A stretch of DNA of 47,565 bases from the NCBI RefSeq assembly GCF_900099935.1, contig NZ_FNEK01000035.1, positions 1 to 47,565 of the forward strand, read 5' to 3'. Origin of the DNA: Aliiruegeria lutimaris (lineage in GTDB: Bacteria; Pseudomonadota; Alphaproteobacteria; Rhodobacterales; Rhodobacteraceae). Positions 10,743 to 45,561 of this stretch are shown here, piece after piece (position 1 is the stretch's first letter; every line of letters begins with the position of its first letter). Position numbers and translations under genes: made by a program. A model generated the notes under the pieces. The model was not told the DNA's origin, ran no database searches, and was given only the letters and a program-made list of their open reading frames with translations.

Positions 10743-10753
10743 CTTGCCCTCCC

Positions 10754-12699: not shown

Positions 12700-12706
12700 A
12701 TTTTCC

Positions 12707-13771: not shown

Positions 13772-13838
13772 GTTGTCCGTGCCCGTCCTGCGTCGGGGCC
13801 GCGCCCTTGCGGCGCAGGATGTTGAGGGAAAGGAAAGC

Positions 13839-13900: not shown

Positions 13901-13912
13901 GCAGGTGTCAGG

Positions 13913-15649
<1,737 letters not shown>

Positions 15650-21148: not shown

Positions 21149-21300
21149 GTCTGTCTCCGCTGTGATCGGGTGGCTTGCCGCACGGACGGCCTCGACCCAC
21201 GTTTCCGTCCCGTCGGATGCTACCCGAGGCATTGCCTAGCGATTGCGACGTTTGACTCAGTCTGTCCTGGAAACGGGCGAGGAAAACCGTGGATCGGGGC

Positions 21301-22188: not shown

Positions 22189-22201
22189 TGCGCGTGCCCC
22201 T

Positions 22202-28986: not shown

Positions 28987-29898
28987 TTATGCGCCAAGTT
29001 CGATCGTCAAGCTGTCGAAGAGCTCTTCCACATCGAACACACGGGGGATGATCTTCTGCTGAACCGCGTATTCGAGTGCCAGTTCGAGCCCCTTTCGGTT
29101 GGCTTCAACGCCAATGGGGGTGAAGTCGATGTCATCTTCGGCCATTTCGGACGCGGCCCGCTTGCTCTCCGAAAACAGCCTGAAGACCTCCTTCACGACA
29201 TCGGGCCTCGACCTCGCCAGTTCCTCAGTCACTGCGAGCATATGGTTGACAGGCACGATTCCATGCCGTCCGTGCCAATCCCGCGCCGCGTCATGTGGGT
29301 CCGGGATCAGGGGGCGCAATCGTTCATCCTTGGGAAGGTCCGCGCCCAGGATCGCCGCGTCGACCTCGCCCGAGATGAGCATGGATACAGGCCCCTTGCC
29401 GGCCGGTCCTCTTTCTACGAAACCGGGATCAGCGTACTCGGCCAGATGCCCATCGTCGAAACAGACCCATGTCACCTGATCGAGGTCGACACCGTAATCC
29501 TGCGCGAGAATACCACGAACCCAAACTCCGGTTGTTTGGGAGTAGGAGCGGATCGCGACGCGGCGCCCGTGGAGGTCTGCCGGGCCAATTTCTCCAAATT
29601 GCGAATTGTAGATGATGTTGTGGTGCTGAAATCGGCTCATGACGACGGCAGGAAGCAACACCAGTGGTTTGCCGAAAGCCTTCGCCTGCAGATAGGTCAT
29701 GATCGCCATTTCGCTGAGGTCGAACGCCTGCTCCCGCACCATGGCCTTGAATCCTTTGTGTGCGGGGTTCAGATCGGCATAGCCGAAATCGACCAGCGAA
29801 GAATGAATCTTGCCGTCCCGAAGCGCCCGCGTGACGGGATGGATATCGATGTTGGTCTTGAGAGTAATGCGACCCGAGCCGGTGTTCTCAGTGGCCAT
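28987..29898 (-). CDS. 4,5-dihydroxyphthalate decarboxylase (Pht5)-like protein, subtype A, copy 1
   Basis: A 303-residue protein of the Pht5 family, which has a periplasmic-binding-protein type II fold but is a cytoplasmic decarboxylase in phthalate degraders. No signal peptide is present. Family phrases: FDLSEMAIMTYLQAK, a FQHHNIIYN stretch, DLHGRRVAIRSY, then SQTTGVWVRGILAQDYGVDL and VTWVCFDDGHLAEY. The best relative in the window is the product of 40690-41589. The ATG at 29898 was chosen as the point where similarity starts. It follows the subtype B gene at 30046-31038 in the same direction with a gap of 147 nt, so they are probably cotranscribed. The true substrate is unknown; annotation as an ABC-transporter binding protein is possible but less likely without a signal. 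Confidence 0.78.
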   Translation of the reverse strand: MATENTGSGRITLKTNIDIHPVTRALRDGKIHSSLVDFGYADLNPAHKGFKAMVREQAFDLSEMAIMTYLQAKAFGKPLVLLPAVVMSRFQHHNIIYNSQFGEIGPADLHGRRVAIRSYSQTTGVWVRGILAQDYGVDLDQVTWVCFDDGHLAEYADPGFVERGPAGKGPVSMLISGEVDAAILGADLPKDERLRPLIPDPHDAARDWHGRHGIVPVNHMLAVTEELARSRPDVVKEVFRLFSESKRAASEMAEDDIDFTPIGVEANRKGLELALEYAVQQKIIPRVFDVEELFDSLTIELGA

Positions 29899-30045
29899 GC
29901 GACGGTTCCTCCGTTTCCATGTTTTCTTTTCCGGGCGCCGCATGCGGGCGGTTCGGCGGAGCAATTCCGTCGATTCAAGACCCGGTGCGCGGCGACGGGA
30001 GATCGTCCTGGTTGATGTCCGGGAGGATCCCGCCGTCCACGCTTC

Positions 30046-31038
30046 CTATGTGTCGAGTTCCACGAACAGTTCCTCCATCCGAAGTTGCCGCGGAACCAGT
30101 TGCTGCTCGAAGACGGCCCGCATCAGCGCCGCGATCGAAACCCGGTTGGCGGCGCTTCCATAGGGCAGCGGATCACCCTCCGCGAAGGTCATGAATTCGC
30201 GGTACCTTCGGTCATCCGCGGTCTGGGCGAAGCCGTCTGCGAGAAGGTCGACATAACGACTCTTGGCCTCGGTGAAGGCCGCGTACAGTTCACCGGCCAA
30301 CCAGGGATGTTCCGCAAGGATCTGATGTCGGACTACCACGACGCCGTGCATGGGATAGATTCCGGTCCGGCGATACCACTCGGCCTCAAGGGTGGCGGCC
30401 TCCCTGAACAGCGGTCGATACGGCGGAGCCTTGGCCCGCGGTTTTGTTTCCCAGCCGAGTTCCGGCGGCCCCTCCCGACCGATTCCCGCCGTTCCGACAA
30501 ATCCGGCGGAAATGTCCCCATGCGCCATCATGCTCGCCAGTGAATATCCCGGAGGGGCATGGACGACGTTCGATGGCAGGCGCAGACGTGGCTCATGTTC
30601 CTCGTCGTCAACTACCCAATTGACCTTCGAGGCATCAAGACCGAACTCGTTGACGAGGATGCTGCGTCCCCAGACCCCGCTGGTCGCCGAATAGGCCCGA
30701 ATACCGACTTTCCGTCCCTCGAGATCCTTCGGAATGCGGATTCCGGAATCTTCGCGGCACAACAGACCCGAATGATGAAACTGACGGGTAAGAAACACCG
30801 GCAGCGCTATGTACGGCGCGCCATGACATCGCGCGATCATGTAGGTTACCGGCGCCATTTGACAAATGTCGTACTCGACGTTCCGCACCATCCTGCGAAC
30901 GGCAGCAACCTGGGGCCGAACGTCGACGAATTTCAGCTGGACACCGGGGATGCCGATTTCGCCTCGCCGGAGGGCGGCCACGTGCTGAAGATCGCCGAGA
31001 GCAGTCTTCAGTTCCATCGCGAGGCTGGAGCCGGCCAT
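30046..31038 (-). CDS. Pht5-like decarboxylase family protein, subtype B, copy 1
   Basis: A 330-residue family member without signal peptide. It shows YDICQMAPVTYMIAR, FHHSGLLCREDSGI, KDLEGRKVGIRAYSATSGVW and VNWVVDDEEHEPRL, which match the classical Pht5 pattern (GI..P.DL.GK.VG.., W.RG.L..E.G) more closely than subtype A does. Its closest relative here is 33869-34855. Some positions differ from that copy (GRSILVNEFG in place of TRGILQNEYG). The ATG at 31038 follows a good GGAGGAGAA site. It is divergent from the tandem-HTH LysR gene, which probably controls it. Confidence 0.8.
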   Translation of the reverse strand: MAGSSLAMELKTALGDLQHVAALRRGEIGIPGVQLKFVDVRPQVAAVRRMVRNVEYDICQMAPVTYMIARCHGAPYIALPVFLTRQFHHSGLLCREDSGIRIPKDLEGRKVGIRAYSATSGVWGRSILVNEFGLDASKVNWVVDDEEHEPRLRLPSNVVHAPPGYSLASMMAHGDISAGFVGTAGIGREGPPELGWETKPRAKAPPYRPLFREAATLEAEWYRRTGIYPMHGVVVVRHQILAEHPWLAGELYAAFTEAKSRYVDLLADGFAQTADDRRYREFMTFAEGDPLPYGSAANRVSIAALMRAVFEQQLVPRQLRMEELFVELDT

Positions 31039-31248
31039 GTTTCTCCTCCACCTCCTGAGCCGCGGGGACGATGCCGAATTGAGTCACGGTGGCTTAATCT
31101 ATGGCTTGAGGGCAGCGCCCACCAAATCGAATTAGGTTCCAACTCCATAAGTTTCTTGCTAGTCTTTTTTTCATCGGATGAATTGCACGAAGCGGTTCGG
31201 AGGCCGCTCGGTTGCCCAAAACAACCGATGATACGGGGAGAAGAATTT
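31039..31248. promoter_or_regulatory. Divergent promoter region between the Pht5-like operon and the LysR gene
   Basis: A 210-base gap between divergent starts, the classical layout for a LysR regulator and its target. It contains AT-rich tracts around 31120-31180 but I could not assign a single T-N11-A box with confidence. Confidence 0.5.
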
Positions 31249-32493
31249 GTGCAGGGAACGCCGCAAAGCTCGCACTCTATCCGGAGCGATCTCCCAACTT
31301 TACGAAACCTAAGGATTTTTGAGGCTGTATCCAGGCTCGGAAGCATTACCGGAGCCGCGAGCGAGGTGCATTTGTCGCAACCAGCGGTGACGCAGGCAAT
31401 TGCGAATATCGAGAGCCAGATCGGGGCGCGGCTATTCGACAGGCGCAATCAGGGAACATTCCTCACCGCCGACGGGCTGATCTTCGAGAAGCGCGTTAGA
31501 CGATACTACGCACAAATCGAGCGGGGGTTGCGAGACTTCGGAAAACGGGACTACGGGAAGAACCTGGCGGTTCTGCTGAACCTGATTTCCGAACCACAGA
31601 TCCGCTGCCTCATCGCGATTTCCGAAGCTGAATCCTTCGCCCAGGCAGCACAGGCCATCAACCTTTCCGAGACGACCCTCTCGCGTTCGGCCCGCGACCT
31701 TCAGGGCACTCTGAAATCCCCTGCCCTATTTCGGCGTACTGCCACCAGCATGACATGCAGCCTTGCGGGGCGGGAACTGGCACGCCGATTCAAGCTTGCC
31801 CGTCGCGAAATCTCGCTTGCCTGCGAGGAAATCGACGCCTCGCGCGGCCATGCCCGCAGTCGCATCTCGCTCGGTGTGCTGCCTCTTGGCGGCACCTCGA
31901 TCACCGGGCACGCGGTCAGCGAGTTTTGCAGGAGGCACCCCGACGTCCGCTTCGAACTGGTTGAAGGACATTACGATGTCCTGCTGGGGATGCTGAGGTC
32001 AGCATCGATCGACTTCATTATCGGCATGCTGCGCAACCCGGCGCCGGAAAGTGACGTTGTGGAGGAATACCTATTGGCGGACCCCTACGTGGTCGCCGTG
32101 CGCAAAACGCATCCGTTGGCCGACAAGACAGATGTTTCGAAGGAGGCGTTGGCCGAATGCCGATGGATCCTGCCGAAGGGTGACACCCCCAGGCGGCGGG
32201 CCTTCGAGAAAGCGTTTTCCAACCTGTCCGAATTGCCCACGGTCGACATCGAAACCAGTTCGACACGTCATATCCGGACCATTCTGCGGCAAAGCGATCG
32301 GGCGTCGATCCTGACCCGGGTCGAGATGCTCGCGGAAAGTGGCGCCGAAGGCCTCGTCGGCATTCCCCTGGCTCTACCGCGCGCGACGGGGAAGGAACGC
32401 ATTATCGGCACGACACGGCTTCTGGATCAGCTAAGAACCCCATACCAAACCGAATTCCTGGATCTTCTGCGCGATATCGCGCGCACGATCTGA
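31249..32493 (+). CDS. LysR-type regulator with two tandem HTH domains
   Basis: A 414-residue regulator, about 100 residues longer than usual LysR proteins. The first LysR HTH is at about 16-75 (LRIFEAVSRLGSITGAASEV, then LSQPAVTQAIANIE and RLFDR). A second, weaker one follows at about 113-172 (CLIAISEAESFAQAAQAINL, ETTLSRSARDLQ, ALFRRT). A normal effector-binding domain occupies about 204-400 (ISLGVLPLGGTS, DFIIGMLRN). I chose GTG at 31249 because GGGGAG at 31235-31240 is at proper spacing; an in-frame ATG at 31228 has no such site. It is divergent from the subtype B decarboxylase gene and converges on the MFS gene, 2 nt away. It is the only regulator in the island and so the likely controller of both divergent operons. 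Confidence 0.87.
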   Translation: MQGTPQSSHSIRSDLPTLRNLRIFEAVSRLGSITGAASEVHLSQPAVTQAIANIESQIGARLFDRRNQGTFLTADGLIFEKRVRRYYAQIERGLRDFGKRDYGKNLAVLLNLISEPQIRCLIAISEAESFAQAAQAINLSETTLSRSARDLQGTLKSPALFRRTATSMTCSLAGRELARRFKLARREISLACEEIDASRGHARSRISLGVLPLGGTSITGHAVSEFCRRHPDVRFELVEGHYDVLLGMLRSASIDFIIGMLRNPAPESDVVEEYLLADPYVVAVRKTHPLADKTDVSKEALAECRWILPKGDTPRRRAFEKAFSNLSELPTVDIETSSTRHIRTILRQSDRASILTRVEMLAESGAEGLVGIPLALPRATGKERIIGTTRLLDQLRTPYQTEFLDLLRDIARTI

Positions 32494-32495
32494 CA

Positions 32496-33761
32496 TCAGG
32501 CACCATTTTCGCCGGGTTCGACCAGGTAGTCCCGCTGTCGCAATTGCGGAAACAGGAATGCCCACAATCCCGCCACGGCGATAGTCCCTGCCCCGCCAAG
32601 AACGATCGCCGGGACAAGACCAAACAGAGCGGCTGTCGCTCCCGACTCGAACTCCCCCAGTTCATTGGATGCGCCGATGAACAGGGAATTCACGGCGGAC
32701 ACGCGACCGCGCATCGCATCGGGCGTATCGCCCTGTACCAGCGTATGGCGGATCACGACGCTGACCACGTCAGAGGCACCGATCAGCAGAAGGAACAGAA
32801 GGGTCAAGTAGACGTAGCTCGACAGACCCAGGCCGATTGTTGCCAAGCCGAAGATCGCGGTCGCAATGAACAGCTTGCGCCCCGCGTGGCGCTGTATGGG
32901 AACGTAGGCCAATGTCAGACCAACGACCATCGCGCCAACCGCCGGGGCGGATTGAAGGACGCCCAGGCCCAGGGGGCCGACATGCAGAACATCGCGGGCA
33001 ATGATCGGCATGAGGGCAGTGGCGCCGCCGAACAGGACCGAGAAGAGGTCGAGCGAGATCGCTCCCAGAATGGGTTTCTGCTGCCACACGAACACCAGTC
33101 CGGCAAATGCGTCTGACAGCCTGACCGGCTCCTTTGAGCGCTCCAGTGGCTGACGGCGGATCATGAAGTTCATTACTGCGGCGACGAGGAAACCTGTCGC
33201 GGTGCAGGCGAAGGGAACCCAGGAGCCACCAAGATAGAGCAGCCCGCCCAGTGCGGGGCCGGTGATGGCGGCAAATTTCGTGACCGACGATGCCAACCCC
33301 ACAACCCGGCTGAAATGCTGGCGCGGCACGAGGCTCGCCACCAGGGCCTGCGCTGCAGGAACGGCGAAGCTCTTGGCGACGCCCAGTATGATCAGCAATG
33401 TGTATACGATGCTCATCTGGACGGGAGGCGAAATGACGGTGAACAAAAGCCCCACACTGACCGCGCCATTGATCGCCAGGCACCCGGCCAGGATCAGGTT
33501 TCTCTGAAAGCGGTCCGCGACAATGCCCGACACGAAAACCAGAAACAGCTTGGGCGCGAACGCCGCCAGACCGACCAGCCCCAACGCCATGGCACTGTTG
33601 GTCACGTCATAGACGAGCCAGCCGACTGCCACGGTGCTCATCTGGTTCGACAGGACCCAGAGGAACCGCGCGACCAGATACAGAAGGACATCCCGTTCGA
33701 GCAAGGGCGACTTCGGTTTCGGAATTGTCAGATCGTTCTCGCCGGGCAATGCCGTGGCCAT
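32496..33761 (-). CDS. MFS transporter (EntS/MFS_3-like)
   Basis: A 421-residue major facilitator with about twelve hydrophobic helices and the family motif GIVADRFQRNLILAGCL after the second helix. VTKFAAITGPALGGLLY in the fifth helix resembles the antiporter motif of exporters of the EntS/YbdA type. It is most likely an efflux carrier. The ATG at 33761 is chosen because the hydrophobic core begins shortly after it. It lies 107 nt downstream of the subtype B copy 2 gene on the same strand and may export a pathway intermediate; that is inference. Confidence 0.82.
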   Translation of the reverse strand: MATALPGENDLTIPKPKSPLLERDVLLYLVARFLWVLSNQMSTVAVGWLVYDVTNSAMALGLVGLAAFAPKLFLVFVSGIVADRFQRNLILAGCLAINGAVSVGLLFTVISPPVQMSIVYTLLIILGVAKSFAVPAAQALVASLVPRQHFSRVVGLASSVTKFAAITGPALGGLLYLGGSWVPFACTATGFLVAAVMNFMIRRQPLERSKEPVRLSDAFAGLVFVWQQKPILGAISLDLFSVLFGGATALMPIIARDVLHVGPLGLGVLQSAPAVGAMVVGLTLAYVPIQRHAGRKLFIATAIFGLATIGLGLSSYVYLTLLFLLLIGASDVVSVVIRHTLVQGDTPDAMRGRVSAVNSLFIGASNELGEFESGATAALFGLVPAIVLGGAGTIAVAGLWAFLFPQLRQRDYLVEPGENGA

Positions 33762-33868
33762 TCCGCAACCTCTTCGCCATTTCGACCGCAAGGATGTTCG
33801 ATTGTCCCGCGGCAAGGAGGAGCGAGGCACGAGGCGACACCCCGAGCCACGCGCCGCAGATCTGCGAC

Positions 33869-34855
33869 CTAGATGTTCTCCGGGTCGTGGAACAGTTCGC
33901 CCACCTCCATCGGAGACGGCATCAGCTTCTGCTGAACGGCATAGGTCATCAGCGCCTCGATCGACGGCATATTTGCCTCAAGCCCGTAGGGAACCGGGTC
34001 CGGACCCACGATTTCGGCCATTTTGCGCAGATTGTTATCGGCCTTCGCCGTCGCCTCGCCATTGTTCAGCTTTTCGAGATAGCGTTTCTTGGACTCGGCC
34101 ATCGCTTCGTAGAGAAGCCGTGGCACTTCGGGATGAGCGGCGACGACTTCATCCTTGATGACGATCGTCGGATGGAATGGATAGATGCCAGTCCGGGCGA
34201 ACCACTCGGCCTCGCGAGCCGACGCATCGGGAATGAGTTCACGGTAGTCGTCGGTCGAAAGGGTCGCTTTCGCCGACCAGTTCTCGGTCGGCGGGCCCTC
34301 GCGCCCGATGCCGGCATTGCCCTGCAGCCCGGCCTCGATCTCACCGGCGGCCATCATCCCCGCCAGCGACCGCCCCTCTGGAACATGGAGGACGTTTTCG
34401 GGCAGCTGAAGTTGCGCGACATGCTCTTCATCGTCGACCATCCAGGTCACCTTGCCGAGATCGACGCCGTATTCATTCTGAAGGATGCCTCGCGTCCAGA
34501 CGCCGGTCGTCACCGAATAGGCACGAACGCCGACCTTCTTGCCTTCGAGGTCCTTTGGTTCGTTGATCCCGGAATCCGGCCGGACCAGCAATCCGTGATG
34601 GTGAAACCGGCGATTGAGAAAGACCGGCAACGCCTTGAACGGCGATCCGTGCCCGCGCGCAACCATGTAGGTCGTTGCGGCCAACTCGCAGACATCGAAT
34701 TCCACCGAGCGAACCATGCGCCGGAAGGCAGCGACCTGCGGTTCCACCTCCACGAAGTGCAGTGTCACGCCCGGAATGGTGATTTCGCCGCTCTTGAGCG
34801 CGGCCGTTTGGCCGGAAGTGCGGAGCGAAACGGAAAGAGTAACGTTTTCCGCCAT
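33869..34855 (-). CDS. Pht5-like decarboxylase family protein, subtype B, copy 2
   Basis: A 328-residue paralogue of 30046-31038. It shows FDVCELAATTYMVARGH, FHHHGLLVRPDSGI, DLEGKKVGVRAYSVTTGVW, TRGILQNEYGVDLGKVTWM and VDDEEHVAQLQLP. No signal peptide. The end region ALMTYAVQQKLMP is shared with the other copies. The ATG at 34855 has GGAAGGAA upstream at slightly long spacing; an in-frame ATG at 34879 is possible. It is in the minus-strand arm with the MmgE/PrpD and TctAB genes, 252 nt after tctAB. Confidence 0.8.
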   Translation of the reverse strand: MAENVTLSVSLRTSGQTAALKSGEITIPGVTLHFVEVEPQVAAFRRMVRSVEFDVCELAATTYMVARGHGSPFKALPVFLNRRFHHHGLLVRPDSGINEPKDLEGKKVGVRAYSVTTGVWTRGILQNEYGVDLGKVTWMVDDEEHVAQLQLPENVLHVPEGRSLAGMMAAGEIEAGLQGNAGIGREGPPTENWSAKATLSTDDYRELIPDASAREAEWFARTGIYPFHPTIVIKDEVVAAHPEVPRLLYEAMAESKKRYLEKLNNGEATAKADNNLRKMAEIVGPDPVPYGLEANMPSIEALMTYAVQQKLMPSPMEVGELFHDPENI

Positions 34856-35107
34856 GAGTTGAGGTTCCTTCCAAGTCATGTTTTCGAGCGAATGCCGCCC
34901 CGGCACGCTTGCGCCGCTGTCGGGATCGACCTGATTTCTTTTTTCCTTCGCGGCCCCGGAAGAAATATCGGATCACCGGGACAGTCCATAAGTTTCAAGG
35001 GCTTCCATCGCTCACCCATCGGTGTCGCAAGTCTGCCCGGGGAAGAAAGAACGCGCACCATTTGCTTCTTTCTCCTGCTTTCGCACCGTCATGGCTCCGT
35101 TGAGGAT

Positions 35108-37138
35108 TCATTTGCCAAACAGCATCTCTCCGATGATCGGCCTTGGCCAATCAACATGAAGCACGTGGTCGAAAACGCCATAGATCAACGCCAAGACCGC
35201 CAGCGCGTAGACCGTGCTCAGGAGCCAGGATTCCCGCCCTTCCAGCCGCATGTAGGCGATGATGATGACCGGGATCGTGGGCAGCAGGCCGATGATCGAC
35301 AGCAGCAACAGGAACGCCAGGAACCATCCGAAGAACATTGCGGCCCGCAGCAAGATCGTCTTCTGCGTCAGGTGCTCGTCATTCGAAACGAGGTCCATAT
35401 GCATGCCACCGTTCTGAACATTGCCGCCTTCCTTGGCCTGTTCCCCCGAAAAGATGCTCGACATAAGGCTGATCGAAGCGGCGACCAGCAATGTCGAGGC
35501 AACTGCGGTCGGGCCAATTCGCGCGGCGAGTGGCCAGCCCTGCGCGGCGATCAGCATGTACGCGCCGATCACGATGAAGACGATGTAGAGAATGTCCGAA
35601 GCGTGAAACCTGGGCATGCCTTGCGGAAGCACGGTCTTCACTCCCTGGCTGCGCAACTCCCGAATGAAAGGCCGGGCGATGGTCAGCAGGGACAGGGACA
35701 AAAGAACGATCACCCCGGGGCGCAGCAGCCAGGCGGCATCGTAGCGCATAACCGAAATCGCCATGTAGCGTTCGATCATCACGCCGAGGATGAGGCCCAG
35801 AATGAGCGGCGGACGCGGCCATTTCAGGCGCTTCATCACCCAACCGAGCACACCGAAGAATAACAGAACCAACAGGTCTCCCCAGCTCCGGGACCCCTGG
35901 TATGCGCCAACATAGATGATGACCATGATCAACGGCAGCACCAGCGTGTAGCGAAGCATGGAAATCTTTGCGAACTGACCACTGAGCAGGAAACAGATGC
36001 CAGCCCCGAGTATGTTGGCGACCGCGATGCTCCAGACCATGGAGTAGGTAACGTCGAGGTTCCTTGCCAGCATGTCCGGTCCCGGGATGAAACCGTGGAT
36101 CATCAACGCCCCCATCAGGATCGCGAAGGCTGCTCCGTGTGGCACGCCGAAGGCGATCATCGTCACCAGGCTGCCGCCCTCCTTGGCGTTGTTGGACGAT
36201 TCCGGTGCAATTACGCCGCGCACGTCGCCCGTGCCGAAGGTCTCCGAGGCCCCCTTCTCCGTACGAATGGCGTGCCCGTAGGCAAACCAGTCGATGACCG
36301 ACCCGGTAATGCCGGGAACGAGTCCGAGCATGGAGCCAAGCATGCTGCATCGAATGACCAGAAACCAGTTTCGGAAAGTATCCTTCACCCCCTGAAGCAT
36401 GCCTTCGCGCGCGCTGAATTTCACGTCGTCCGTGATCGAGGCACGCTTGATGGCAAGGTCGCAAAGTTCAGGCAGCGCGAACACGCCGAGAAGTACCGGC
36501 AACATAGGAACGCCGTCCCACAGGTAGAGCTGTCCGAAGGTCCACCGCAATTCGCCGGTCTGCGAGTCGGTACCGATCATGCTGACCAACACTCCGAAAC
36601 AGGCCGCCGTAATCCCGCGCAGCGGAGCGCTTCCCGATAGCGCTGCGACCATAGCGATGCCAAAGATCATGATGCAAAGCAGTTCGGGTGTGCCGAAGGC
36701 GAGCACGAATGGACGAACTACCGGAATGGTAAGTCCAAGCAGCAACGCTCCCATCAGGCCACCGAGCAAAGATGCCGTGAAGGCCGCGGACAGGGCACGC
36801 CCCGCCTCGCCGTTCTTTGCCATGGCGTGGCCGTCCAGAATGGTCGCCTGTGACGCCGCTGTCCCCGGCACCCCGAACAGAACCGCAGGGATGGTATCGG
36901 ACGTCGTCGTCACCGAATGCATGCCCAGCAGCATCGCAAACGCTGCATAAGGATCCATCGTGTAGGTGAACGGAACGAGGATGGCGAAGCCGGTCAACCC
37001 GCCGATGCCAGGCAGCAGCCCGATCAACAGGCCGACAATGACGCCGAACCACAGGAACACAAGACGACTTGGGTCAAGAACGATCCCAAGCGCCGTCCAC
37101 GCGGAATCAAGCATGTAGGGAATGTCTAGAAATTCCAT
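35108..37138 (-). CDS. TctA-TctB fusion permease of a tripartite tricarboxylate transporter
   Basis: A 676-residue membrane protein. Residues 1 to about 505 are a TctA large permease, with the Gly-rich LLPGIGGLTG near residue 41, FGVPGTAASQATILDGH, GSVIDWFAYGHA and FGVPHGAAFAILMGALM. Residues about 520-676 form four membrane segments resembling TctB, the small permease that is normally a separate protein. A polar linker of about 40 residues (EGGNVQNGGMHMDLVSNDEH) interrupts the TctB part. TTT systems use a TctC-type binding protein; one is encoded by the divergent operon at 39444. Substrates in this family are carboxylates such as tricarballylate, citrate and terephthalate. The stop codon is 252 nt before the subtype B copy 2 gene; the MmgE/PrpD gene is 128 nt upstream. 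Confidence 0.88.
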   Translation of the reverse strand: MEFLDIPYMLDSAWTALGIVLDPSRLVFLWFGVIVGLLIGLLPGIGGLTGFAILVPFTYTMDPYAAFAMLLGMHSVTTTSDTIPAVLFGVPGTAASQATILDGHAMAKNGEAGRALSAAFTASLLGGLMGALLLGLTIPVVRPFVLAFGTPELLCIMIFGIAMVAALSGSAPLRGITAACFGVLVSMIGTDSQTGELRWTFGQLYLWDGVPMLPVLLGVFALPELCDLAIKRASITDDVKFSAREGMLQGVKDTFRNWFLVIRCSMLGSMLGLVPGITGSVIDWFAYGHAIRTEKGASETFGTGDVRGVIAPESSNNAKEGGSLVTMIAFGVPHGAAFAILMGALMIHGFIPGPDMLARNLDVTYSMVWSIAVANILGAGICFLLSGQFAKISMLRYTLVLPLIMVIIYVGAYQGSRSWGDLLVLLFFGVLGWVMKRLKWPRPPLILGLILGVMIERYMAISVMRYDAAWLLRPGVIVLLSLSLLTIARPFIRELRSQGVKTVLPQGMPRFHASDILYIVFIVIGAYMLIAAQGWPLAARIGPTAVASTLLVAASISLMSSIFSGEQAKEGGNVQNGGMHMDLVSNDEHLTQKTILLRAAMFFGWFLAFLLLLSIIGLLPTIPVIIIAYMRLEGRESWLLSTVYALAVLALIYGVFDHVLHVDWPRPIIGEMLFGK

Positions 37139-37266
37139 TCCGGGTCTCCTCCTGGCGCGCTGTCACCTTCTTGTTGTGCGAAGGTTTGAACGAACGCCCG
37201 TTTTATTTGCCGTCCCGACCGGAAGAGCCGACCGTTCAGGCGGCCTTTCCGCTCAGACGGACTGCT

Positions 37267-38691
37267 TCACCCGATCTCGCGAAGCGGATGCATAAGCGCG
37301 TTTGCGTCGCTGGCTTCGAAGCCCATCACTGCATCTTGGATCCGAAGGATGAGGTTCTCATCCATGCGAAAACGTGCAATTTCCTCGAATTTCTCGTTGA
37401 CGACCTCCTCGTCGAGCCCCTTGTCGGGGAAGGAATGACCGGGATGGAACAGGCATTCCTGCTCGACCGTTCTACCGTCGTCGAAGGACACCACAATGCG
37501 GCTCGGCATGCTTCCGGGAGCGCGTGCGGCGAGATCGGGATCAACGCTCAATTCCGTGACATCGATCAACCGGGTCATGTCCGCGTGCTCCCAACGACGG
37601 TCGCGGAACTGCGCGTCGGTCATCGCGCCTTCGGCCATGGCGACGGCCGGAAGGAAGGTGAAACTGTGATCGGCGGCTTCCCGGGTCTTGGGAAACTGAC
37701 GGTAGATCTCGCCCTGCTGTTTGCGGATCATCGGGAGGTCGGCCATGATGATCTGGATCCTCGCAATGCGGTCGACCCGGTCCTTGACCTTCGGATGAAG
37801 CGCAAGTGCCGCTGCAATGGTCGTCTGGGCCGTTCCGATGCAGGCATAAGGCTTTATGCAGGATGTCATGACGAAATGCGGGTCCGTCACAGGTGTCCAC
37901 AGGTTTTCGAAGCCGAGATCGGGATCGAATACCTGATGCATCCCCCCGCGGTGTTCCAGTACCTCTTGCGGACCGGTAATGCCAAGTTCCGCCAACAATG
38001 CTGCCTGCACACCGCTCTGTGCAATGAAGGCGTTGGCCAGGTTCTTGGCGCCGGACAGCTTGCCCCAACGCACGACCGATGGTGTCGCACAACGGATCGC
38101 GGCGAGCGCCAGGGCGTTTGCCTGTCGTTCCAGATCGAAACCGGCAAGCCTGCCATACATCGCCGCTGCGATCATGCCGGAAACGCTCGTGCCGTCCCAA
38201 GCTGAACTGAACGGCATCAGGTTCCGAAGACGTCCGAACATTTCGTAGCCCATGGCAATGGCCTCAATGGTCTTCAGACCCGAAACCCCAAGATGCTCGG
38301 CCGAAGCCAACGCGGCGGGAATATTGTCGCTGCAATGGCCGGCGACGCTGAGCTTGCCTTCCTTCAGGAAGAACTGGACGTCGTTGAAGTCCAGCGACCG
38401 AACAAGGGCGCCGTTCATCAGCACCGCAGAGAGGATCGACGTCTTCTCCGGCTTGCCAACGATCGAGCACATCGGGTTTCCCCCCAAGGTGTCGAGCATC
38501 GTGGCAACACGGCTTGGTGTCTGGACATCGAGCGCAGCGATTGCGCAAGCGATGGAATCAAGGATCAGCAGTTTGGTCTGCTTGACAATCAGCGGGGTAG
38601 TCCAGGCCGATTGATCCTCCAGTGTCCATCTTGCGAGTTCGCGGATTGGCGCAGTTCCATCCACGCCCTTTGGGTCGACTAAATTGTTCAC
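37267..38691 (-). CDS. MmgE/PrpD-family protein
   Basis: A 474-residue member of the family that includes 2-methylcitrate dehydratase and cis-aconitate decarboxylase. The N-terminal helical domain has LILDSIACAIAAL, LMNGALVRSLDFND and GHCSDNIPAALA; the C-terminal half has KPYACIGTAQTTI. Family members dehydrate or isomerise polycarboxylic acids. I chose GTG at 38691 with GGAGGAG just before it; the upstream 23 residues of the open frame look non-coding. In a LigJ-containing cluster, an isomerase or dehydratase acting on a tricarboxylic intermediate would fit, but this is inference. Confidence 0.83.
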   Translation of the reverse strand: MNNLVDPKGVDGTAPIRELARWTLEDQSAWTTPLIVKQTKLLILDSIACAIAALDVQTPSRVATMLDTLGGNPMCSIVGKPEKTSILSAVLMNGALVRSLDFNDVQFFLKEGKLSVAGHCSDNIPAALASAEHLGVSGLKTIEAIAMGYEMFGRLRNLMPFSSAWDGTSVSGMIAAAMYGRLAGFDLERQANALALAAIRCATPSVVRWGKLSGAKNLANAFIAQSGVQAALLAELGITGPQEVLEHRGGMHQVFDPDLGFENLWTPVTDPHFVMTSCIKPYACIGTAQTTIAAALALHPKVKDRVDRIARIQIIMADLPMIRKQQGEIYRQFPKTREAADHSFTFLPAVAMAEGAMTDAQFRDRRWEHADMTRLIDVTELSVDPDLAARAPGSMPSRIVVSFDDGRTVEQECLFHPGHSFPDKGLDEEVVNEKFEEIARFRMDENLILRIQDAVMGFEASDANALMHPLREIG

Positions 38692-39443: not shown

Positions 39444-40478
39444 ATGAAATTCGGAAAAACTGCGGTGCTGATCGGCTTGACGGTCTGCTCGTCCCTGACG
39501 TGGCTGGGGTCCGCGACGGCGGATCCGGTCGAAGATTTCTACAAGGGAAAGCGGCTGACCTTGATCGTCAGCGCCTCTCCCGGCGGCGGCAGCGACTTCT
39601 TTGCACGCCAGTTCGCGCAATTTTACGGAAATCACATTCCGGGCAACCCTGAGGTCATCCCGGTCAACAAGAAGGGCGCCGGCGGCCTAGTTGCGGCAGC
39701 CCAACTCCAGAAGAACGAGCACGAAGACGGAACGGTGATCGCGCTTCTGCAGCGAAACAACCTGTATCGTCCCCTGTTGGAGGAAGCGCACGACAAGTTC
39801 GACCCGCGCGAAGTCCGGTGGATCGGAAGCCTCAACAAGGAAAAATACCTACTGGCCGCCTCCAAGGATTCGCCGGTGACGGCACCGGAGGACATGTTCA
39901 CCAAGACGATGATCCTCGGAGCGACAGGTTTCACCAACGAGAACCGCACGGTTCCCGCCATGATGAACAAGTATCTCGGGACCAAGTTCGACATTGTCCA
40001 CGGCTACGAAGGCAGCGAGGAAGCCGTCATCGCGATGGAACGTGGCGAGGTACACGGCAAGTTCGGTGCGGTGAACGGGTTCATCGCCGGCAACGAGGCC
40101 GAAATGATCAAGCGCGGCGAAATCGTCGTTCTGATGCAGGCGGGCTGGACGAACCACCCGGCGTTCCCCGACGTGCCGAACTTCTCGACCTACGTGAAGG
40201 ATCCCGAAGCCAAGGCAGTGGTCGATTTCTTCATCCTGCCCTTCGAGTCCGGTCGCCCGTTGGCCGCGCCCAAGGGTGTGCCTGCCGACCGGCTGGAAGC
40301 GCTGCGCAAGGCTTTCGACGAGACGATGACGGATCCGGCGTTCCTTGAGCACATGAAGAAAGTGAATTCCGAAGTCGACCCGATCTCGGGCGAAGAGGTC
40401 GAGGCGATCATCGAAACACTCTATGCAACTCCGGAAAATGTCCTCGCAAACGTCCGCGAGATCCTGAAGGCGGAGTAA
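39444..40478 (+). CDS. TctC/Bug-family periplasmic carboxylate-binding protein
   Basis: A 344-residue exported binding protein with a signal peptide ending at about residue 26 (SATA). The Bug/TctC pattern is clear: DFYKGKRLTLIVSASPGGGSD, with the binding loop PGGGSDFFAR, then IPGNPEVIPVNKKGAGG. Such proteins capture carboxylates and deliver them to TctAB. The ATG at 39444 follows GGGAGG at 39433-39438. It is first in the plus-strand operon and is divergent from the TctAB arm, so the transporter is split over both operons, a layout that would put all three components under one divergent promoter. Confidence 0.88.
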   Translation: MKFGKTAVLIGLTVCSSLTWLGSATADPVEDFYKGKRLTLIVSASPGGGSDFFARQFAQFYGNHIPGNPEVIPVNKKGAGGLVAAAQLQKNEHEDGTVIALLQRNNLYRPLLEEAHDKFDPREVRWIGSLNKEKYLLAASKDSPVTAPEDMFTKTMILGATGFTNENRTVPAMMNKYLGTKFDIVHGYEGSEEAVIAMERGEVHGKFGAVNGFIAGNEAEMIKRGEIVVLMQAGWTNHPAFPDVPNFSTYVKDPEAKAVVDFFILPFESGRPLAAPKGVPADRLEALRKAFDETMTDPAFLEHMKKVNSEVDPISGEEVEAIIETLYATPENVLANVREILKAE

Positions 40479-40493
40479 CCACTTGCCGTCCCA

Positions 40494-40533
40494 GGCCGAA
40501 CCAATCGCGTCGCTGGACGTGAACGGTTCGGCC
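40494..40533 (+). other. Hairpin between tctC-like and Pht5-like genes
   Basis: A perfect 9-bp inverted repeat (GGCCGAACC at 40494-40502, GGTTCGGCC at 40525-40533) with a 22-nt loop lies just after the TctC stop. No U-run follows. It could lower read-through or protect the binding-protein mRNA 3' end. Confidence 0.45.
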
Positions 40534-40689
40534 ATCCGGCGAGTTGCGCTGGCGATCATCAAATAAAACCGGGATGCCGCCAAAGGCCACATCCCACGGC
40601 CCTCTTTCGGCCTGCCATGGCGGCTCCTGCCAACCCCAGATCCCGGATTCGGGGTAACGCGACCAAGAACGATCAGGATGGAAACCAAG

Positions 40690-41589
40690 ATGTCTGATGG
40701 ATCGAGCAGCGCCTCTGCGACCACCAAGCTCAAGCTGAAAACCCTGCTTCAGGACCGGGCCTGGACGCCTCCCCTCAAGGACGGGTCCATCACCTCCGAT
40801 CTGGTGGAACTGGACTTTGATGACATCGCGGAGGCGAGCAAGCGGTTCAAGCCAATGGTCCGCGAGATGGCCTATGATTGCGGCGAACTGGCAATCGTGA
40901 CCTACCTTCAGGCCAAGAGTTTCGGCAAGCCGCTTGTCCTTCTGCCTTTCGTGGTTGCCGGACGATTGCAGCACAAGAATATCGCCTACAACACCGAACG
41001 CGGCGTGGTGACGCCGGAGACCCTGGAAGGCAAGCGCGTGGGCGTCCGGACCTATTCCCAGACCACCGGAGTCTGGGTCCGGGGCATCCTTCAGAACGAC
41101 TACGGCGTGGACCTGGGCAAGGTCACCTGGATCACGTTCGAAGACGGACATCTGGCGGAACATACCGACCCCGAGAACTGTGTCCGGGCCCCCGAAGGCA
41201 CGAAAGTGGCCGACATGCTGCTCGCGGGCGAACTGGACGCTGGCATGCTGGGCGGCAACATGCCCAAGGACTCAAGGCTGAAGACCGTCATCGCCGACCC
41301 CGATCAGGCTGACAAGGACTGGGTCGCCCGGAACAACGTGACCCCGATCAACCACATGTTCGTGGTGTCAAAGGAGCTTTGCGACACCAACCCGGACGCG
41401 GTACGCGCCGTCTTCGACATGCTCGCCGAGGCGAACAGGACGGCCCCGGGCCCATTTCCGGTCGGGTTCGAAGGCGACTGGACGGCGCTCGAACTGGTGA
41501 GCCTCTACGCCTACCAGCAAGGCGTTGTTTCCAAGAAATTTTCGGTCGACGAGCTCTTCGCCGAAGCGGCCGAAATCCTGCATCGGTGA
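40690..41589 (+). CDS. Pht5-like decarboxylase family protein, subtype A, copy 2
   Basis: A 299-residue paralogue of 28987-29898. Shared phrases are VREMAYDCGELAIVTYLQAK, FGKPLVLLPFVV, SQTTGVWVRGIL, DYGVDLGKVTWITF and EDGHLAEHTDP; NMPKDSRLKTVI matches DLPKDERLRPLI of copy 1. No signal peptide, so a cytoplasmic enzyme is more likely than a binding protein. An ATG at 40678 in frame is also possible; I prefer 40690 because AGGATGG lies just upstream. It is 211 nt after the TctC gene and 55 nt before the LigJ-like gene. Confidence 0.78.
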   Translation: MSDGSSSASATTKLKLKTLLQDRAWTPPLKDGSITSDLVELDFDDIAEASKRFKPMVREMAYDCGELAIVTYLQAKSFGKPLVLLPFVVAGRLQHKNIAYNTERGVVTPETLEGKRVGVRTYSQTTGVWVRGILQNDYGVDLGKVTWITFEDGHLAEHTDPENCVRAPEGTKVADMLLAGELDAGMLGGNMPKDSRLKTVIADPDQADKDWVARNNVTPINHMFVVSKELCDTNPDAVRAVFDMLAEANRTAPGPFPVGFEGDWTALELVSLYAYQQGVVSKKFSVDELFAEAAEILHR

Positions 41590-41644
41590 GCGGAGCCTTC
41601 CAGCACCGCGCCGCCCTGGAACGTGGAAAGAGTGAGCGGAATCA

Positions 41645-42673
41645 ATGATTATCGACTGTCATGGACATTATACAACCGCGCCGCAGGCCCAGCGGAGTTG
41701 GCGACAGAAGCAGGTTGAAGCCCTCGACAACCCCACAAGCGTTCCCGCAAAGGGCACGATCGACATCTCCGACGATGAGATCCGGGAGTCCTTGGAAGGC
41801 AAACAGCTCAAGCAGCAGCGCGATTGCGGGATCGACATGGCACTGTTCTCGCCAGGCGCAGGGAAGATGGCACACCACGTCGGCAATGCCACGACCAGCC
41901 AGCATTGGTCGGAGCATTGCAATGACATGATCCATCGAGTGTGCGGCCTCTATCCCGACAGTTTCATTGGTGTTTGCCAGCTGCCACAGTCGCCCGGCGT
42001 ACCGCCCGCGAATTGCATCCCCGAACTGGAACGCTGCGTTGAAGAGCTGGGCTTTGTTGGCTGCAACCTGAACCCCGATCCGACCGGTGCCTATTGGACC
42101 GACCCGCCCTTGACCGACCGGTGGTGGTATCCGCTCTATGAGAAGCTGGTGGAACTCGACGTGCCCGCGATGATCCATGTGGCGGCGTCCTGCAACCCGA
42201 ACTTCCACGGTACAGGCGCCCACTACCTCGCCGGCGATACGACCGCCTTCATGCAGTTTCTGCTGTCGGACCTGTTCAAGGATTTCCCGACGTTGAAGTT
42301 CGTTATCCCGCACGGCGGCGGCGCGGTCCCGTATCACTGGGGGCGTTTCCGCGGCCTGGCGCATGACCGGGGTCTGCCGCCCCTCGAGGAACTTCTTCTG
42401 GACAACGTGTTTTTTGACACCTGCGTTTATCACCAGCCCGGAGTTTCGCTTCTGACCGAGGTTATCCCCGTGAAGAACGTGCTTTTCGGCTCGGAAATGA
42501 TCGGTGCCATCAAGGGCAAGGATCCCCTGACAGGGCGACCGTTCGACGACACGAAGACTTTTGTCGATGGTTCCCCGTGGCTCTCGAAAGAGGACAAGGA
42601 GATGGTTTTCGAGAAGAACGCCCGCGCCGTCTATCCACGCCTCGACAAGATTCTCAAAAGCAGGGGTCTCTGA
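41645..42673 (+). CDS. LigJ-like 4-oxalomesaconate hydratase (amidohydrolase family)
   Basis: A 342-residue protein with strong resemblance to LigJ of the protocatechuate 4,5-cleavage pathway, which hydrates 4-oxalomesaconate to 4-carboxy-4-hydroxy-2-oxoadipate. Length agrees with LigJ (about 341). Visible landmarks are DCHGHYTTAP at the N-terminus (metal-ligand His6 and His8), LPQSPGVPPANCIPELERC, CNLNPDPTG, FVIPHGGGAVPYHWGRFRG and FFDTCVYHQPG. The start at 41645 has only a weak ribosome binding site. It is followed 39 nt later by the aldolase gene, which could use its product. No ligAB, ligC or ligI orthologue of the classical pathway is present. Confidence 0.85.
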   Translation: MIIDCHGHYTTAPQAQRSWRQKQVEALDNPTSVPAKGTIDISDDEIRESLEGKQLKQQRDCGIDMALFSPGAGKMAHHVGNATTSQHWSEHCNDMIHRVCGLYPDSFIGVCQLPQSPGVPPANCIPELERCVEELGFVGCNLNPDPTGAYWTDPPLTDRWWYPLYEKLVELDVPAMIHVAASCNPNFHGTGAHYLAGDTTAFMQFLLSDLFKDFPTLKFVIPHGGGAVPYHWGRFRGLAHDRGLPPLEELLLDNVFFDTCVYHQPGVSLLTEVIPVKNVLFGSEMIGAIKGKDPLTGRPFDDTKTFVDGSPWLSKEDKEMVFEKNARAVYPRLDKILKSRGL

Positions 42674-42712
42674 GGCACTCTAGCCGAAGACTCCACAAAG
42701 CGAGCAAACCTC

Positions 42713-43576
42713 ATGGAAACCATTCCCCGCCTCAACGGCGTCATTCGCGCCCTCGAGCAGAACCTTCCCGCCTTCACCTCCTTCGCGACCCCGGATCCCG
42801 CGACCGCGCTGTCTTTCGCCGGCACCCGGTACGACGGCGTCGTATTCGAGATGGAGCACAACGCTTATGACATAGCCAGTCTGCGCGACAGTTTTCAATT
42901 CATGCTGAACCGCGCACAGATCGCAAGGTCGGGCTCCATCGCGCCCGCCGTGACCCCCATCGTTCGCATCCCCCCGAATGGCAGTGAAATGAACCAGTTC
43001 CTCGCCAAGCAGGTGTTGGACATCGGCGCTTACGGGGTCGTCTGGCCGCATATCAGCACGGCCGAACAAGCCTATAACGCAGTGGCATCCTGCCGGTATC
43101 CGAGACCGAAGGACGCGCCGATTTACGAACCCGTGGGCGTGCGGGGCGACGGGCCGGCCCGGGCCATGCGCTACTGGGGGCTCAGCCAGGCCGAGTATTA
43201 CGCCCGCGCCGACGTCTGGCCCCTCGCCCCGCAAGGGGAAATCCTGGTGATCCTGATGATCGAGGATTGCGAAGGGGTCGATAACCTGGACGAAATCCTC
43301 GGGACGGTGGACGGCATCGGTGTCGTCCTGATCGGAGAAGGCGACCTGAGCCAGGAACTCGGTCATCCGCGCGAATTCGAACATCCGATCGTTCGCGAGG
43401 CGATGGGACATGTCGTGGCGACCTGCAAGAAGCACAAGGTCACCGTCGGCCACCCGCATGTCGGCCCGAAAAACGTCGAAGCGGTGCTTGAGGAAGGTTT
43501 TACTTTCCTGATGGCGAAACCGACCACAACCTATCCGGCCCTTGAAAAGGGACTCGCGTTGTCAGGGCGTCTTTAG
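42713..43576 (+). CDS. HpcH/HpaI-family class II aldolase
   Basis: A 287-residue member of the HpcH/HpaI aldolase/citrate-lyase beta family, which cleaves 4-hydroxy-2-oxo acids to pyruvate and an aldehyde or keto acid. Features: FEMEHNAYD (family MEHGxxD-type), a LDIGAYGVVWPHIS strand, MIEDCEGVDNLDEIL with the metal-binding Glu, and GEGDLSQELGHP with the metal-binding Asp. Cleavage of 4-carboxy-4-hydroxy-2-oxoadipate to pyruvate and oxaloacetate would fit its place after LigJ; the classical pathway uses a different (RraA/LigK-type) aldolase. That proposed substrate is inference. The start at 42713 is weakly supported by ribosome binding sequence. Confidence 0.85.
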   Translation: METIPRLNGVIRALEQNLPAFTSFATPDPATALSFAGTRYDGVVFEMEHNAYDIASLRDSFQFMLNRAQIARSGSIAPAVTPIVRIPPNGSEMNQFLAKQVLDIGAYGVVWPHISTAEQAYNAVASCRYPRPKDAPIYEPVGVRGDGPARAMRYWGLSQAEYYARADVWPLAPQGEILVILMIEDCEGVDNLDEILGTVDGIGVVLIGEGDLSQELGHPREFEHPIVREAMGHVVATCKKHKVTVGHPHVGPKNVEAVLEEGFTFLMAKPTTTYPALEKGLALSGRL

Positions 43577-43625
43577 CCGCCCTTCGCGCGCGCCCCGACA
43601 AACGGTATCAAGCAAGGAACGAAAG

Positions 43626-44492
43626 ATGACCGTCGTAGATATCCACCCGCACATAATCTCCGAGGATACCGACCGCTACCCGATCACTCCGCTGGCAGGC
43701 AAGCGCTCCGAGTGGTCGGCAAAGCGCTCGGTCACGGTTGAGAAGATGATCGAGAGCATGGATGCCGCCGGTGTGGACAAGGCCGCCATTGTGCATTCCT
43801 CGACGACGTATGGGTTCAACTGCGAATATGCAGCCGACGCTGTGGCCACCTATCCGGACAGGTTTACCGGCGTCTTCTCGGTCAACGTGCTCGAACCCGA
43901 TGCCACCGAAGCCATGCTGAAATGGTACGATCAGGGCATGACCGGCATGCGGATTTTCACCCGCGGGAGCACGTTCAAGGAGCCCTGGCTGGCCTTGGAC
44001 GATCCCAGGATCTTTCCCTGCTATGAGCTCGCGGGTGAGAAGCAGATTTCCGTCGCGATGAACCCCACCAACCACGAGTTCGATCAACTGGAAACCATCC
44101 TGAAAGCCTTCCCGCAGGTCTCTTTTGTCCTCGATCACCTCGGGAAGACCGACTTCACCGACGGGACGCCCTTCGCCGCGGCGGAACCGCTGTGGCGGCT
44201 GGCCCAATATGCCAACCTGCACCTGAAAGTAGCGACCAAGAACTTCGTACAGGCCAAAGACGGAAAGGCGACGTCGGAGTCGGTCTTCGGCAGGCTGGTC
44301 TCGGAATTCGGTGCCAACCGGATCGCGTGGGGGTCGAATTTCCCGGCGGCCAAGGGCAACCTGCCGGAACTGGTTGCAATCGCGCGTGATGGACTGTCGG
44401 CATTGTCGGATGTCGATCAGGAATGGATCCTCGGCAAGACTGCGCTGAAGCTGTACCCGGCGTTAGCCTCCGAAAAAGCGGCGGCAGACTGA
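43626..44492 (+). CDS. Amidohydrolase-2 family hydrolase, lactonase-like
   Basis: A 288-residue TIM-barrel hydrolase of the amidohydrolase-2 family, related in fold to 2-pyrone-4,6-dicarboxylate lactonase (LigI). It begins with the metal-site start DIHPHI (His7, His9) and has LDHLGKTDF in the middle. The late barrel motif is WGSNFPAAKG, so Asn occupies the place of the usual catalytic Asp of many members (WGSDFP); Asn is also seen in some subfamilies. The ATG at 43626 follows AAGGAACGAAAG. A lactone or similar ring hydrolysis step is suggested by family and context. Confidence 0.78.
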   Translation: MTVVDIHPHIISEDTDRYPITPLAGKRSEWSAKRSVTVEKMIESMDAAGVDKAAIVHSSTTYGFNCEYAADAVATYPDRFTGVFSVNVLEPDATEAMLKWYDQGMTGMRIFTRGSTFKEPWLALDDPRIFPCYELAGEKQISVAMNPTNHEFDQLETILKAFPQVSFVLDHLGKTDFTDGTPFAAAEPLWRLAQYANLHLKVATKNFVQAKDGKATSESVFGRLVSEFGANRIAWGSNFPAAKGNLPELVAIARDGLSALSDVDQEWILGKTALKLYPALASEKAAAD

Positions 44493-44733
44493 AATTCTCA
44501 AGCATCAGGGATAAGGCAACGGTAGTGGTCGGTCTGCTGGTCCTTTTTGCTCGGCTACGTGCAGCTTCTCACCGACGAAAATCGAACCCTCTCTCAAGAC
44601 CAAAGAGATGGCCCGAGTTTTCAGGGCAGCCCCTTGATCGAGGATTTTGTCGTTTGGGCTTCTTGTCGCGCTCGAGATCCGACCCAGAGCAGGTAAAGGG
44701 AAACGGCTTGCCAAGCCCTGAAAAGGAGAAAAA

Positions 44734-45561
44734 ATGACCAACAACTGGAGCGTATTTGTCCTCGAATATGCCTATTCCCACGAACCTTGGGTAGGTCTGG
44801 TGAAGGGGATGGAGAAAGACGGAATGGTCGACCTGCCATATTCGTTCGTACTCGCGACGAAGGGCGACCGGCGGATTCTCGTCGATGCGGGTTTCATGAA
44901 GACCGGCTCCGAGGAAGAATTCCCGCGGAAGTTCCAGGTCAAACAATGGATCTCGCCGCTTCGGATGTTGGCCGAGATGGATGTCCGCCCCGAGGACATC
45001 ACAGATATTGTCGTCACTCATGCGCATTTCGACCACATGGGGGCGATCGGCGAGTTCCCGGACGCGCATATCCATATCCAGAAGACGGAACTGCTGACCT
45101 GGTACGAGGCGATTGCGCTTCCGCGGCGCTTCAGCCATCTCACGCGGATTATCGATCCAGACACGCTGCGTGCGGCGCTCAATGCGTCGATCCAGCATCG
45201 CGTAACGCTGATCGACGGCGATCGAGATCACATCCTGCCCGGCATCCATGTCCGTCTGGCGGCCGGGCATACGGCGGGGCAGCAAATCGTTATCATCGAC
45301 ACCGAAAAAGGCGCGCACGTTATTTCGGGCGATTGCATCTACACGCGCCGGCAACTTACCGGTCATGACAATAACGGCGTCTATGTACCGCTGAACAACG
45401 CGACGGGCACCGTCTGGGATCAGCTGAAATCCATCGACCGGCTAAATGACGCGATCGACGGCGATCAGTCCCGGTTGGTCATCCTCCACGATGTCGATCG
45501 ATGGAAGGGGCGGCCCGTTGTTGCGGAAGTCGAGGGCTACCGTGTTGTCCAGATCGTATGA
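44734..45561 (+). CDS. Metallo-beta-lactamase-fold hydrolase, lactonase-like
   Basis: A 275-residue hydrolase of the metallo-beta-lactamase superfamily with the AttM/AiiA-like layout. The zinc motif THAHFDHMG is at 95-103 (His96, His98, Asp100, His101), then AAGHTAGQQ, the bridging SGDCIY and a late LHDVD histidine. It may hydrolyse a lactone or thioester. AAAAGGAG gives a good ribosome binding site before the ATG at 44734. It is 241 nt after the previous gene, so it may have its own promoter. Quorum-signal lactonase activity is possible, but the catabolic neighbours make a pathway lactone as likely. Confidence 0.8.
   Translation: MTNNWSVFVLEYAYSHEPWVGLVKGMEKDGMVDLPYSFVLATKGDRRILVDAGFMKTGSEEEFPRKFQVKQWISPLRMLAEMDVRPEDITDIVVTHAHFDHMGAIGEFPDAHIHIQKTELLTWYEAIALPRRFSHLTRIIDPDTLRAALNASIQHRVTLIDGDRDHILPGIHVRLAAGHTAGQQIVIIDTEKGAHVISGDCIYTRRQLTGHDNNGVYVPLNNATGTVWDQLKSIDRLNDAIDGDQSRLVILHDVDRWKGRPVVAEVEGYRVVQIV

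Follow-up and report, generated by a model that had tools for sequence, protein, structure and literature searches.

We analyzed a 13-gene island at positions 28987-45561 of a 47,565-base window of Aliiruegeria lutimaris DNA; the window is a complete contig (C120), one of the 193 that make up the 5.8 Mb genome, and the island ends 2 kb from the contig end. This island is probably an oxygenase-free accessory catabolic module that feeds the 4-oxalomesaconate (OMA) lower pathway from an imported polycarboxylate. In the mechanism that we propose, a tripartite tricarboxylate transporter (TTT) made of TctC and a TctA-TctB fusion would import a polycarboxylic acid, either non-aromatic or already ring-opened. 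Two kinds of Pht5-like proteins, the A-type phtA/phtD and the C-type phtB/phtC, would convert this acid to OMA together with the amidohydrolase amh2, probably by decarboxylation, and an MmgE/PrpD family protein may also take part in this strain. LigJ would then turn OMA into 4-carboxy-4-hydroxy-2-oxoadipate (CHA), an HpcH aldolase, replacing the RraA-fold CHA aldolase, would split CHA into pyruvate and oxaloacetate, and a LysR-type regulator would control the gene set. Substrates, reactions and regulation are those that we infer from gene content, recurrence, gene neighbours and residue conservation, all of which were directly observed; we are least sure of what the imported acid is and of how it is brought to OMA. 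A bolder version, held only tentatively, is that of an undescribed O2-independent route in which a non-aromatic polycarboxylate entering through the TTT system would be brought to OMA by a pair of lyases of the periplasmic binding protein (PBP) fold and a non-hydrolytic Asp-to-Asn amidohydrolase, the later cleavage falling to a second family of CHA aldolases, that of the HpcH fold, and LigB being added only in lineages with an aromatic parent compound.

From left to right, the island carries two Pht5-like genes, the LysR gene, a major facilitator superfamily (MFS) gene, a third Pht5-like gene, the TctA-TctB fusion and the MmgE/PrpD gene, followed by a right part in which TctC, the fourth Pht5-like gene, LigJ, HpcH, amh2 and a metallo-β-lactamase (MBL) hydrolase all run in one direction. 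Pfam searches and gene calls agreed with the gene content and coordinates of the first-pass annotation, whose named genes are all present, although its list omitted the LysR regulator with its tandem HTH_1 stretches and the MFS protein.

The assignment of LigJ and HpcH carries most of the proposal. LigJ (41645-42673, plus strand) matched solved 4-oxalomesaconate hydratases over its full length (2gwg at 500 bits and 6dwv/6dxq at 475 bits, 341-342 residues), and one solved relative is a complex with CHA; these structures bear out the link from LigJ to OMA drawn in the first-pass annotation. Residues H6, H8, H178 and H223, which we take to be those of the active-site motif, were kept in 53 of 53 hits at 45% identity or more, a count that, like the one for HpcH below, includes some genes fetched more than once. 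The island gene is the single close LigJ of the genome, the other match reaching 34 bits. The aldolase (42713-43576, plus strand) belongs to the HpcH/HpaI class II fold family (PF03328, 94 bits). None of the curated equivalogs HpaI, GarL and RhmA was matched above its cut-off (at best 91 bits for a cut-off of 369), so that HpcH forms a subfamily of its own. H49, R85, E184 and D211 were kept in all 92 hits at 50% identity or more, E184 and D211 presumably being the metal-binding Glu/Asp. The RraA fold of the LigK/GalC-type CHA aldolases was not found in the island, and five RraA-like matches lie elsewhere in the genome. According to the accessible part of one source, this classical fold is unrelated to that of HpcH (PMC5065237).

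A related locus, L159 (genome G133), ties these two enzymes to OMA. It carries homologues of phtA (40%) and amh2 (44%) beside an OMA tautomerase (71% to that of a second OMA locus of our genome, on contig C113), an RraA (74%) and a PIG-L protein (77%), and not LigJ or HpcH. With PIG-L/GalB taken to be a hydratase, the PIG-L/RraA set is a non-homologous set for the same OMA steps. The gene set of L159 therefore supports the assignment of LigJ and HpcH to the conversion of OMA through CHA to pyruvate and oxaloacetate, which from sequence we regard as most likely, and it places phtA and amh2 before OMA.

L159 also bears on another explanation, namely that the A-type Pht-like protein is itself the missing OMA tautomerase or isomerase, an analogue of LigU/GalD, and that phtD-ligJ-hpcH is a tautomerase-hydratase-aldolase cassette. 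The three genes do adjoin one another, and five loci (L041, L044, L067, L069 and L075, of 11-21 kb) carry an A-type gene with LigJ and HpcH but neither a C-type gene nor amh2. Moreover, no PrpF-family match was obtained in 7 of 18 core genomes, several of these being metagenome-assembled genomes of unstated completeness; the other 11 and our own genome do encode a PrpF-family protein. Because the phtA of L159 adjoins a real OMA tautomerase, this explanation is weakened, and we consider it improbable.

The first-pass annotation had pointed out that HpcH stands in place of the usual LigK/RraA-type aldolase, and the alternation of RraA and HpcH beside related LigJ genes supports HpcH as a stand-in. 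Two LigJ trees were calculated, one from 48 rows of at least 45% identity and more than 250 residues, the other from 45 rows after five long-branch rows had been taken out and two added. Both contained a clade of eight (100/99) in which an RraA-family gene is linked to LigJ in two rows and HpcH in six. Better evidence of a swap comes from the window's own family, where L160 and L161 have the order ligJ-RraA-cobW-ADH with a Pht-like gene near and an RraA 60% identical to that of C113, and from their counterpart L042, which has ligJ-hpcH-ADH-cobW and a Pht-like gene. As a separate observation, L042 also encodes a Rieske protein with a LigXa_C domain (L042:3629-6213) adjoining the Pht-like gene, LigJ and HpcH, a third type of upper pathway.

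Comparative genomics of the gene set, proposed as a check in the first-pass annotation, revealed a recurrent accessory module of alpha- and betaproteobacteria. An aldolase scan of GTDB contigs, many of them short, gave 150 relatives, of which 80 were kept. Within five genes of hpcH, LigJ occurred in 30 of the 80, a Pht-like gene in 30 and LigB in 8; for L039, L052 and L072 these counts lacked a gene call for hpcH. Among the 41 loci whose flanks exceed 5 kb on each side, a Pht-like gene was found within 6 kb in 21, LigJ in 18 and LigB in 8. We then compared the loci in a matrix of 34 rows, hand-chosen rather than random, with stretches of about 9-36 kb. Two kinds of loci were distinguished. A TTT set (TctAB at 50% identity or more, TctC, A- and C-type Pht-like genes, LigJ and HpcH) was present in eight loci: the window, Phyllobacterium sp. 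2063, Paracoccus denitrificans HAMBI_2443, two Paraburkholderia, a Burkholderia multivorans plasmid, and G091 and G373 from the window's own family. Neither LigB nor either of two probed VOC types was found in any of these eight. The other kind has the order phtC-ligJ-amh2-(MFS or TctC)-LigB-hpcH-(thiamine pyrophosphate (TPP) enzyme)-phtA and occurs in Sphingobium, Novosphingobium, Sphingomonas, Cupriavidus, Acidovorax and Diaphorobacter; in Caballeronia grimmiae, a VOC-family protein that we read as a dioxygenase lies among these genes. All 11 LigB loci, ten from the matrix plus L162, were without that TctAB, two of them having a 28-29% TctA match. MFS genes were present in several loci of each kind and did not separate them. 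In Paraburkholderia sp. F2, one plasmid carries both a TTT locus without LigB and a LigB locus (L135, L162). Within the family the island is rare, a phtD homologue (E ≤ 1e-40) being detected in 8 of 394 genomes including our own. In G373 (L155, L156) the island contains frames resembling transposases, a phtA copy carries a stop codon and the TPP gene is fragmented; this version is probably a decaying copy.

The LigB loci raise the question of whether the island could be the lower part of a route for aromatic acids, with ring cleavage left to an enzyme encoded elsewhere in the genome, for instance the catechol-2,3-dioxygenase-like VOC protein on C113. The sister operons do have LigB or a VOC-family protein in the cluster, and Steroidobacter, where the fetched 21 kb held no LigB, has a 60% homologue elsewhere in its genome (C4 at 554 kb), possibly about 30 kb from the cluster; an upper pathway elsewhere therefore also occurs. 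Against this, the dedicated LigB of the sister operons found no match in our own genome, in Phyllobacterium sp. 2063 or in G373, and in G091 just one of 39 bits, which favours a non-aromatic substrate for the island. No match was obtained on the P. denitrificans plasmid either, a search that covered the plasmid and not the chromosome. LigB and this type of TTT permease were never found in one locus, no Rieske ring hydroxylase (PF00848) was matched in our genome at E ≤ 0.001, and the C113 VOC protein is grouped with OMA enzymes of its own. The single PF02900 match of the genome lies on contig C111; we take it to be a YgiD/DODA-like protein and the frame next to it to be DoxX-like. The statement of the first-pass annotation that the island encodes no ring-hydroxylating or ring-cleaving oxygenase thus held, and for PF00848 and the sister-operon LigB the absence extends to the whole genome, which does encode the VOC protein on C113. 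We consider an aromatic lower half rather unlikely.

The C113 locus (L138:5604-16482, over 30 kb away from either end of its contig) is of the classical type, with a tandem-HTH LysR, PIG-L, RraA, an OMA tautomerase (532 bits, cut-off 440), the VOC dioxygenase-like protein, a LigI-like protein (60% identity with the LigI of a classical operon) and a TAXI-TRAP system. The only island family found in it is the LysR type; the two regulators (31228-32493 in the window and L138:6644-7903) share 36% identity over 352 residues. A classical lig or phthalate pathway in which the island genes would be ordinary members, the case named in the first-pass annotation as fatal to its interpretation, was not found. 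There is no Rieske match, no further Pht-like gene and no second LigJ above 34 bits, and the OMA genes of C113 lie on another contig without the Pht-like, LigJ or HpcH families of the island.

Several results nevertheless weigh against an oxygenase-free module fed by an imported polycarboxylate. The second locus means that OMA metabolism in this strain is independent of the island, and its VOC dioxygenase makes an upper pathway elsewhere possible. The RraA proteins of L118, L130 and L128 share no more than 28-29% identity with that of C113, a range that also holds for the two linked to the eight-row LigJ clade, and are therefore possibly not CHA aldolases. HpcH of the window has M at position 182, as do 74 of the 92 hits, and the other 18 have Q, the residue of GarL. 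Since LigJ was near only 18 of the 41 aldolase genes with sufficient flanks, the HpcH subfamily also occurs in other settings. Finally, TPP enzymes are present in 6 of the 8 TTT loci (one in pieces); the window and the Phyllobacterium locus have none, carrying PrpD in their place, and the window also has the MBL hydrolase.

The steps proposed upstream of OMA depend on the Pht-like proteins: phtA (28987-29898, minus strand), phtB (30046-31038, minus), phtC (33869-34855, minus) and phtD (40678-41589, plus). No other Pht5-like genes were detected in the genome. phtA and phtD are 50% identical, phtB and phtC 53%, and phtB matched Pfam NMT1/Phosphonate-bd. The AlphaFold2 model of phtD (pLDDT 85) had the PBP-type fold, its best Foldseek match being 9jp7 (TM 0.81), a 4,5-dihydroxyphthalate decarboxylase that phtC matched at 138 bits. 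In a tree of 64 rows, from which at least one row outside 230-460 residues had been removed, an A-type clade of 23 rows (100/100) held phtA and phtD, and a C-type clade of 19 rows (91/83) held phtB and phtC. Pht5 proteins from phthalate clusters formed a separate clade of six rows (100/100), sister to the C-type. Conserved residues also set the groups apart; R111 of phtC, for instance, is R in the A- and C-types and P in Pht5. Because of these separate clades, the island proteins are not members of Pht5; they are two PBP-fold paralogue families related to it. The first-pass annotation was thus right in counting four Pht5-like genes, but its description of them as one kind of decarboxylase did not stand, since there are two families of two members each, neither in the Pht5 clade.

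The same data bear on an ordinary phthalate pathway fragment with Pht5 decarboxylases. It would account for the fold and for the distant sequence relation to 4,5-dihydroxyphthalate decarboxylase. The four Pht5 proteins examined in the six-row clade have Rieske oxygenase and Gfo/Idh dehydrogenase neighbours, however, and neither partner is present in the island, which, like the genome for the Rieske enzyme, lacks the Rieske and dihydrodiol dehydrogenase components of the phthalate 4,5-dioxygenase pathway. With the tree and the gene content together, we ruled this fragment out, and the chance that it is nevertheless correct is slight. The accessible portion of a review on phthalate degradation contains no decarboxylase mechanism (PMC13040137).

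The putative partner amh2 (43626-44492, plus strand) is a cog3618-type amidohydrolase whose model (pLDDT 82) resembles 2-pyrone-4,6-dicarboxylate (PDC) hydrolases (4i6k at TM 0.71, 4dia at TM 0.73). It keeps the HxH of LigI and a later His, is about 24% identical to LigI of a classical lig operon and is without the RFNFVRR stretch. At the position of the catalytic Asp248 of LigI, fixed by alignment to 4d8l and 4dia (D248N), amh2 has N238, and Asn stands there in all 24 hits at 40% identity or more (three of these being the same gene fetched again). With Asn replacing Asp248, amh2 is unlikely, on its sequence, to be an ordinary lactonase. Of the two lactonase-like hydrolases described in the first-pass annotation, both exist as hydrolase-family genes, and it is the lactonase role of amh2 that found no support.

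This residue also decides on PDC scavenging, in which amh2 would act as LigI, followed by LigJ and the aldolase. The fold of amh2 speaks for it, as does a precedent in Rhizobium johnstonii 3841, where the pRL12 locus L121:9001-12058 has LysR, LigJ, TctC and a LigI 70% identical to the classical one, shows no annotated oxygenase in its vicinity and is itself likely a PDC uptake and use locus. PDC scavenging through amh2 was rejected on N238; in addition, the strain has a closer LigI-like protein on C113, and the four Pht-like proteins would be left without explanation. We regard this alternative as very unlikely.

The TctA-TctB fusion (35108-37138, minus strand; TctA 421 bits, TctB 42 bits) and TctC (39444-40478, plus; 44 bits) make up a TTT system by Pfam. 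The MmgE/PrpD protein (37267-38691, minus; Pfam MmgE_PrpD_N/C) has cis-aconitate decarboxylase as its best PDB match (57 bits) and stayed at 57-71 bits against curated PrpD, the 2-methylcitrate dehydratase, for cut-offs of 458-950; at the thresholds of the matrix it had a homologue in the Phyllobacterium locus only (71%). The MBL-fold hydrolase (44734-45561, plus; Pfam Lactamase_B) is AiiA/AttM-like, with the motifs HAHFDH, AGHT, SGD and LHD. Its membership in the pathway is unsure: among the 34 rows it was found, at the same thresholds, in the window only; L156 has a match at 23% identity, and the Variovorax locus L128 a gene annotated as MBL. The regulator at 31228-32493 (plus strand) has two HTH_1 stretches and a LysR_substrate domain, and the MFS transporter (32496-33761, minus; Pfam MFS_3/MFS_1) has a 62% homologue in the Phyllobacterium locus. 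Downstream of hpcH, Phyllobacterium sp. 2063 carries an FAD enzyme that scores as TcuA (552 bits, cut-off 369) and stays below the cut-off of TIGR02485, which hints at a tricarballylate-like acid as its substrate. This hint is not transferable to A. lutimaris, where the best homologue of that enzyme reaches 57 bits, and it is in this enzyme that our genome differs from known tricarballylate use.

Elsewhere in the window, two MBL proteins of the alkyl sulfatase type are encoded at 19046-21232 and 24267-26276. A gene of the sulfate permease family (22928-23884) and one for an SBF-family protein (21301-22245) lie close to them, and the group may point to sulfate-ester use. We read the Pfam matches over 3890-16660 as a glycerol-type block, in which a DeoR regulator accompanies dehydrogenase subunits of the FAD and 4Fe-4S kinds and an ABC transporter that has a binding protein.

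Compared with the lower pathway of protocatechuate 4,5-cleavage and gallate (LigI, LigU, LigJ, LigK; GalB, GalC, GalD), the island shares the LigJ-family hydratase and presumably the conversion of OMA through CHA to pyruvate and oxaloacetate. It differs in having no dioxygenase, LigC, LigI or tautomerase in the cluster, in an HpcH instead of an RraA-fold aldolase, and in its extra Pht-like, TTT and PrpD genes. Likeness to Pht5 (9jp7) lies in the PBP fold, against separate clades and the absence of phthalate dioxygenase partners, and likeness to LigI (cog3618) in the TIM-barrel amidohydrolase fold, against the Asn and the low identity. As far as the accessible sources go, TphC-type TTT uptake of phthalate or terephthalate resembles the island in tying carboxylic acid import to catabolic genes and differs from it in that the island encodes no ring-hydroxylating dioxygenase. 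Flavonoid catabolism (fde/ifc) was rejected as a parent pathway, the enzymes in the accessible part of the source being of other kinds (PMC11069340), and so was riboflavin catabolism, which in the part of its source that is accessible is alike only in the order of pyrone hydrolysis, hydration and retro-aldol cleavage (PMC12746152). In the open-licence PMC literature, at the level of listings, no description of this gene set was found. We place the island with the OMA lower pathway, as a variant in which another enzyme would carry out the last step. If the proposal is true, the OMA pathway would not be bound to aromatic ring cleavage, a non-aromatic entry existing, and HpcH would be a second fold for the CHA aldolase. 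Families now annotated as "ABC transporter substrate-binding protein" and "amidohydrolase" would have an assayable catabolic role, and the TTT solute-binding protein would gain a defined pathway end from which its substrate could be traced backwards.

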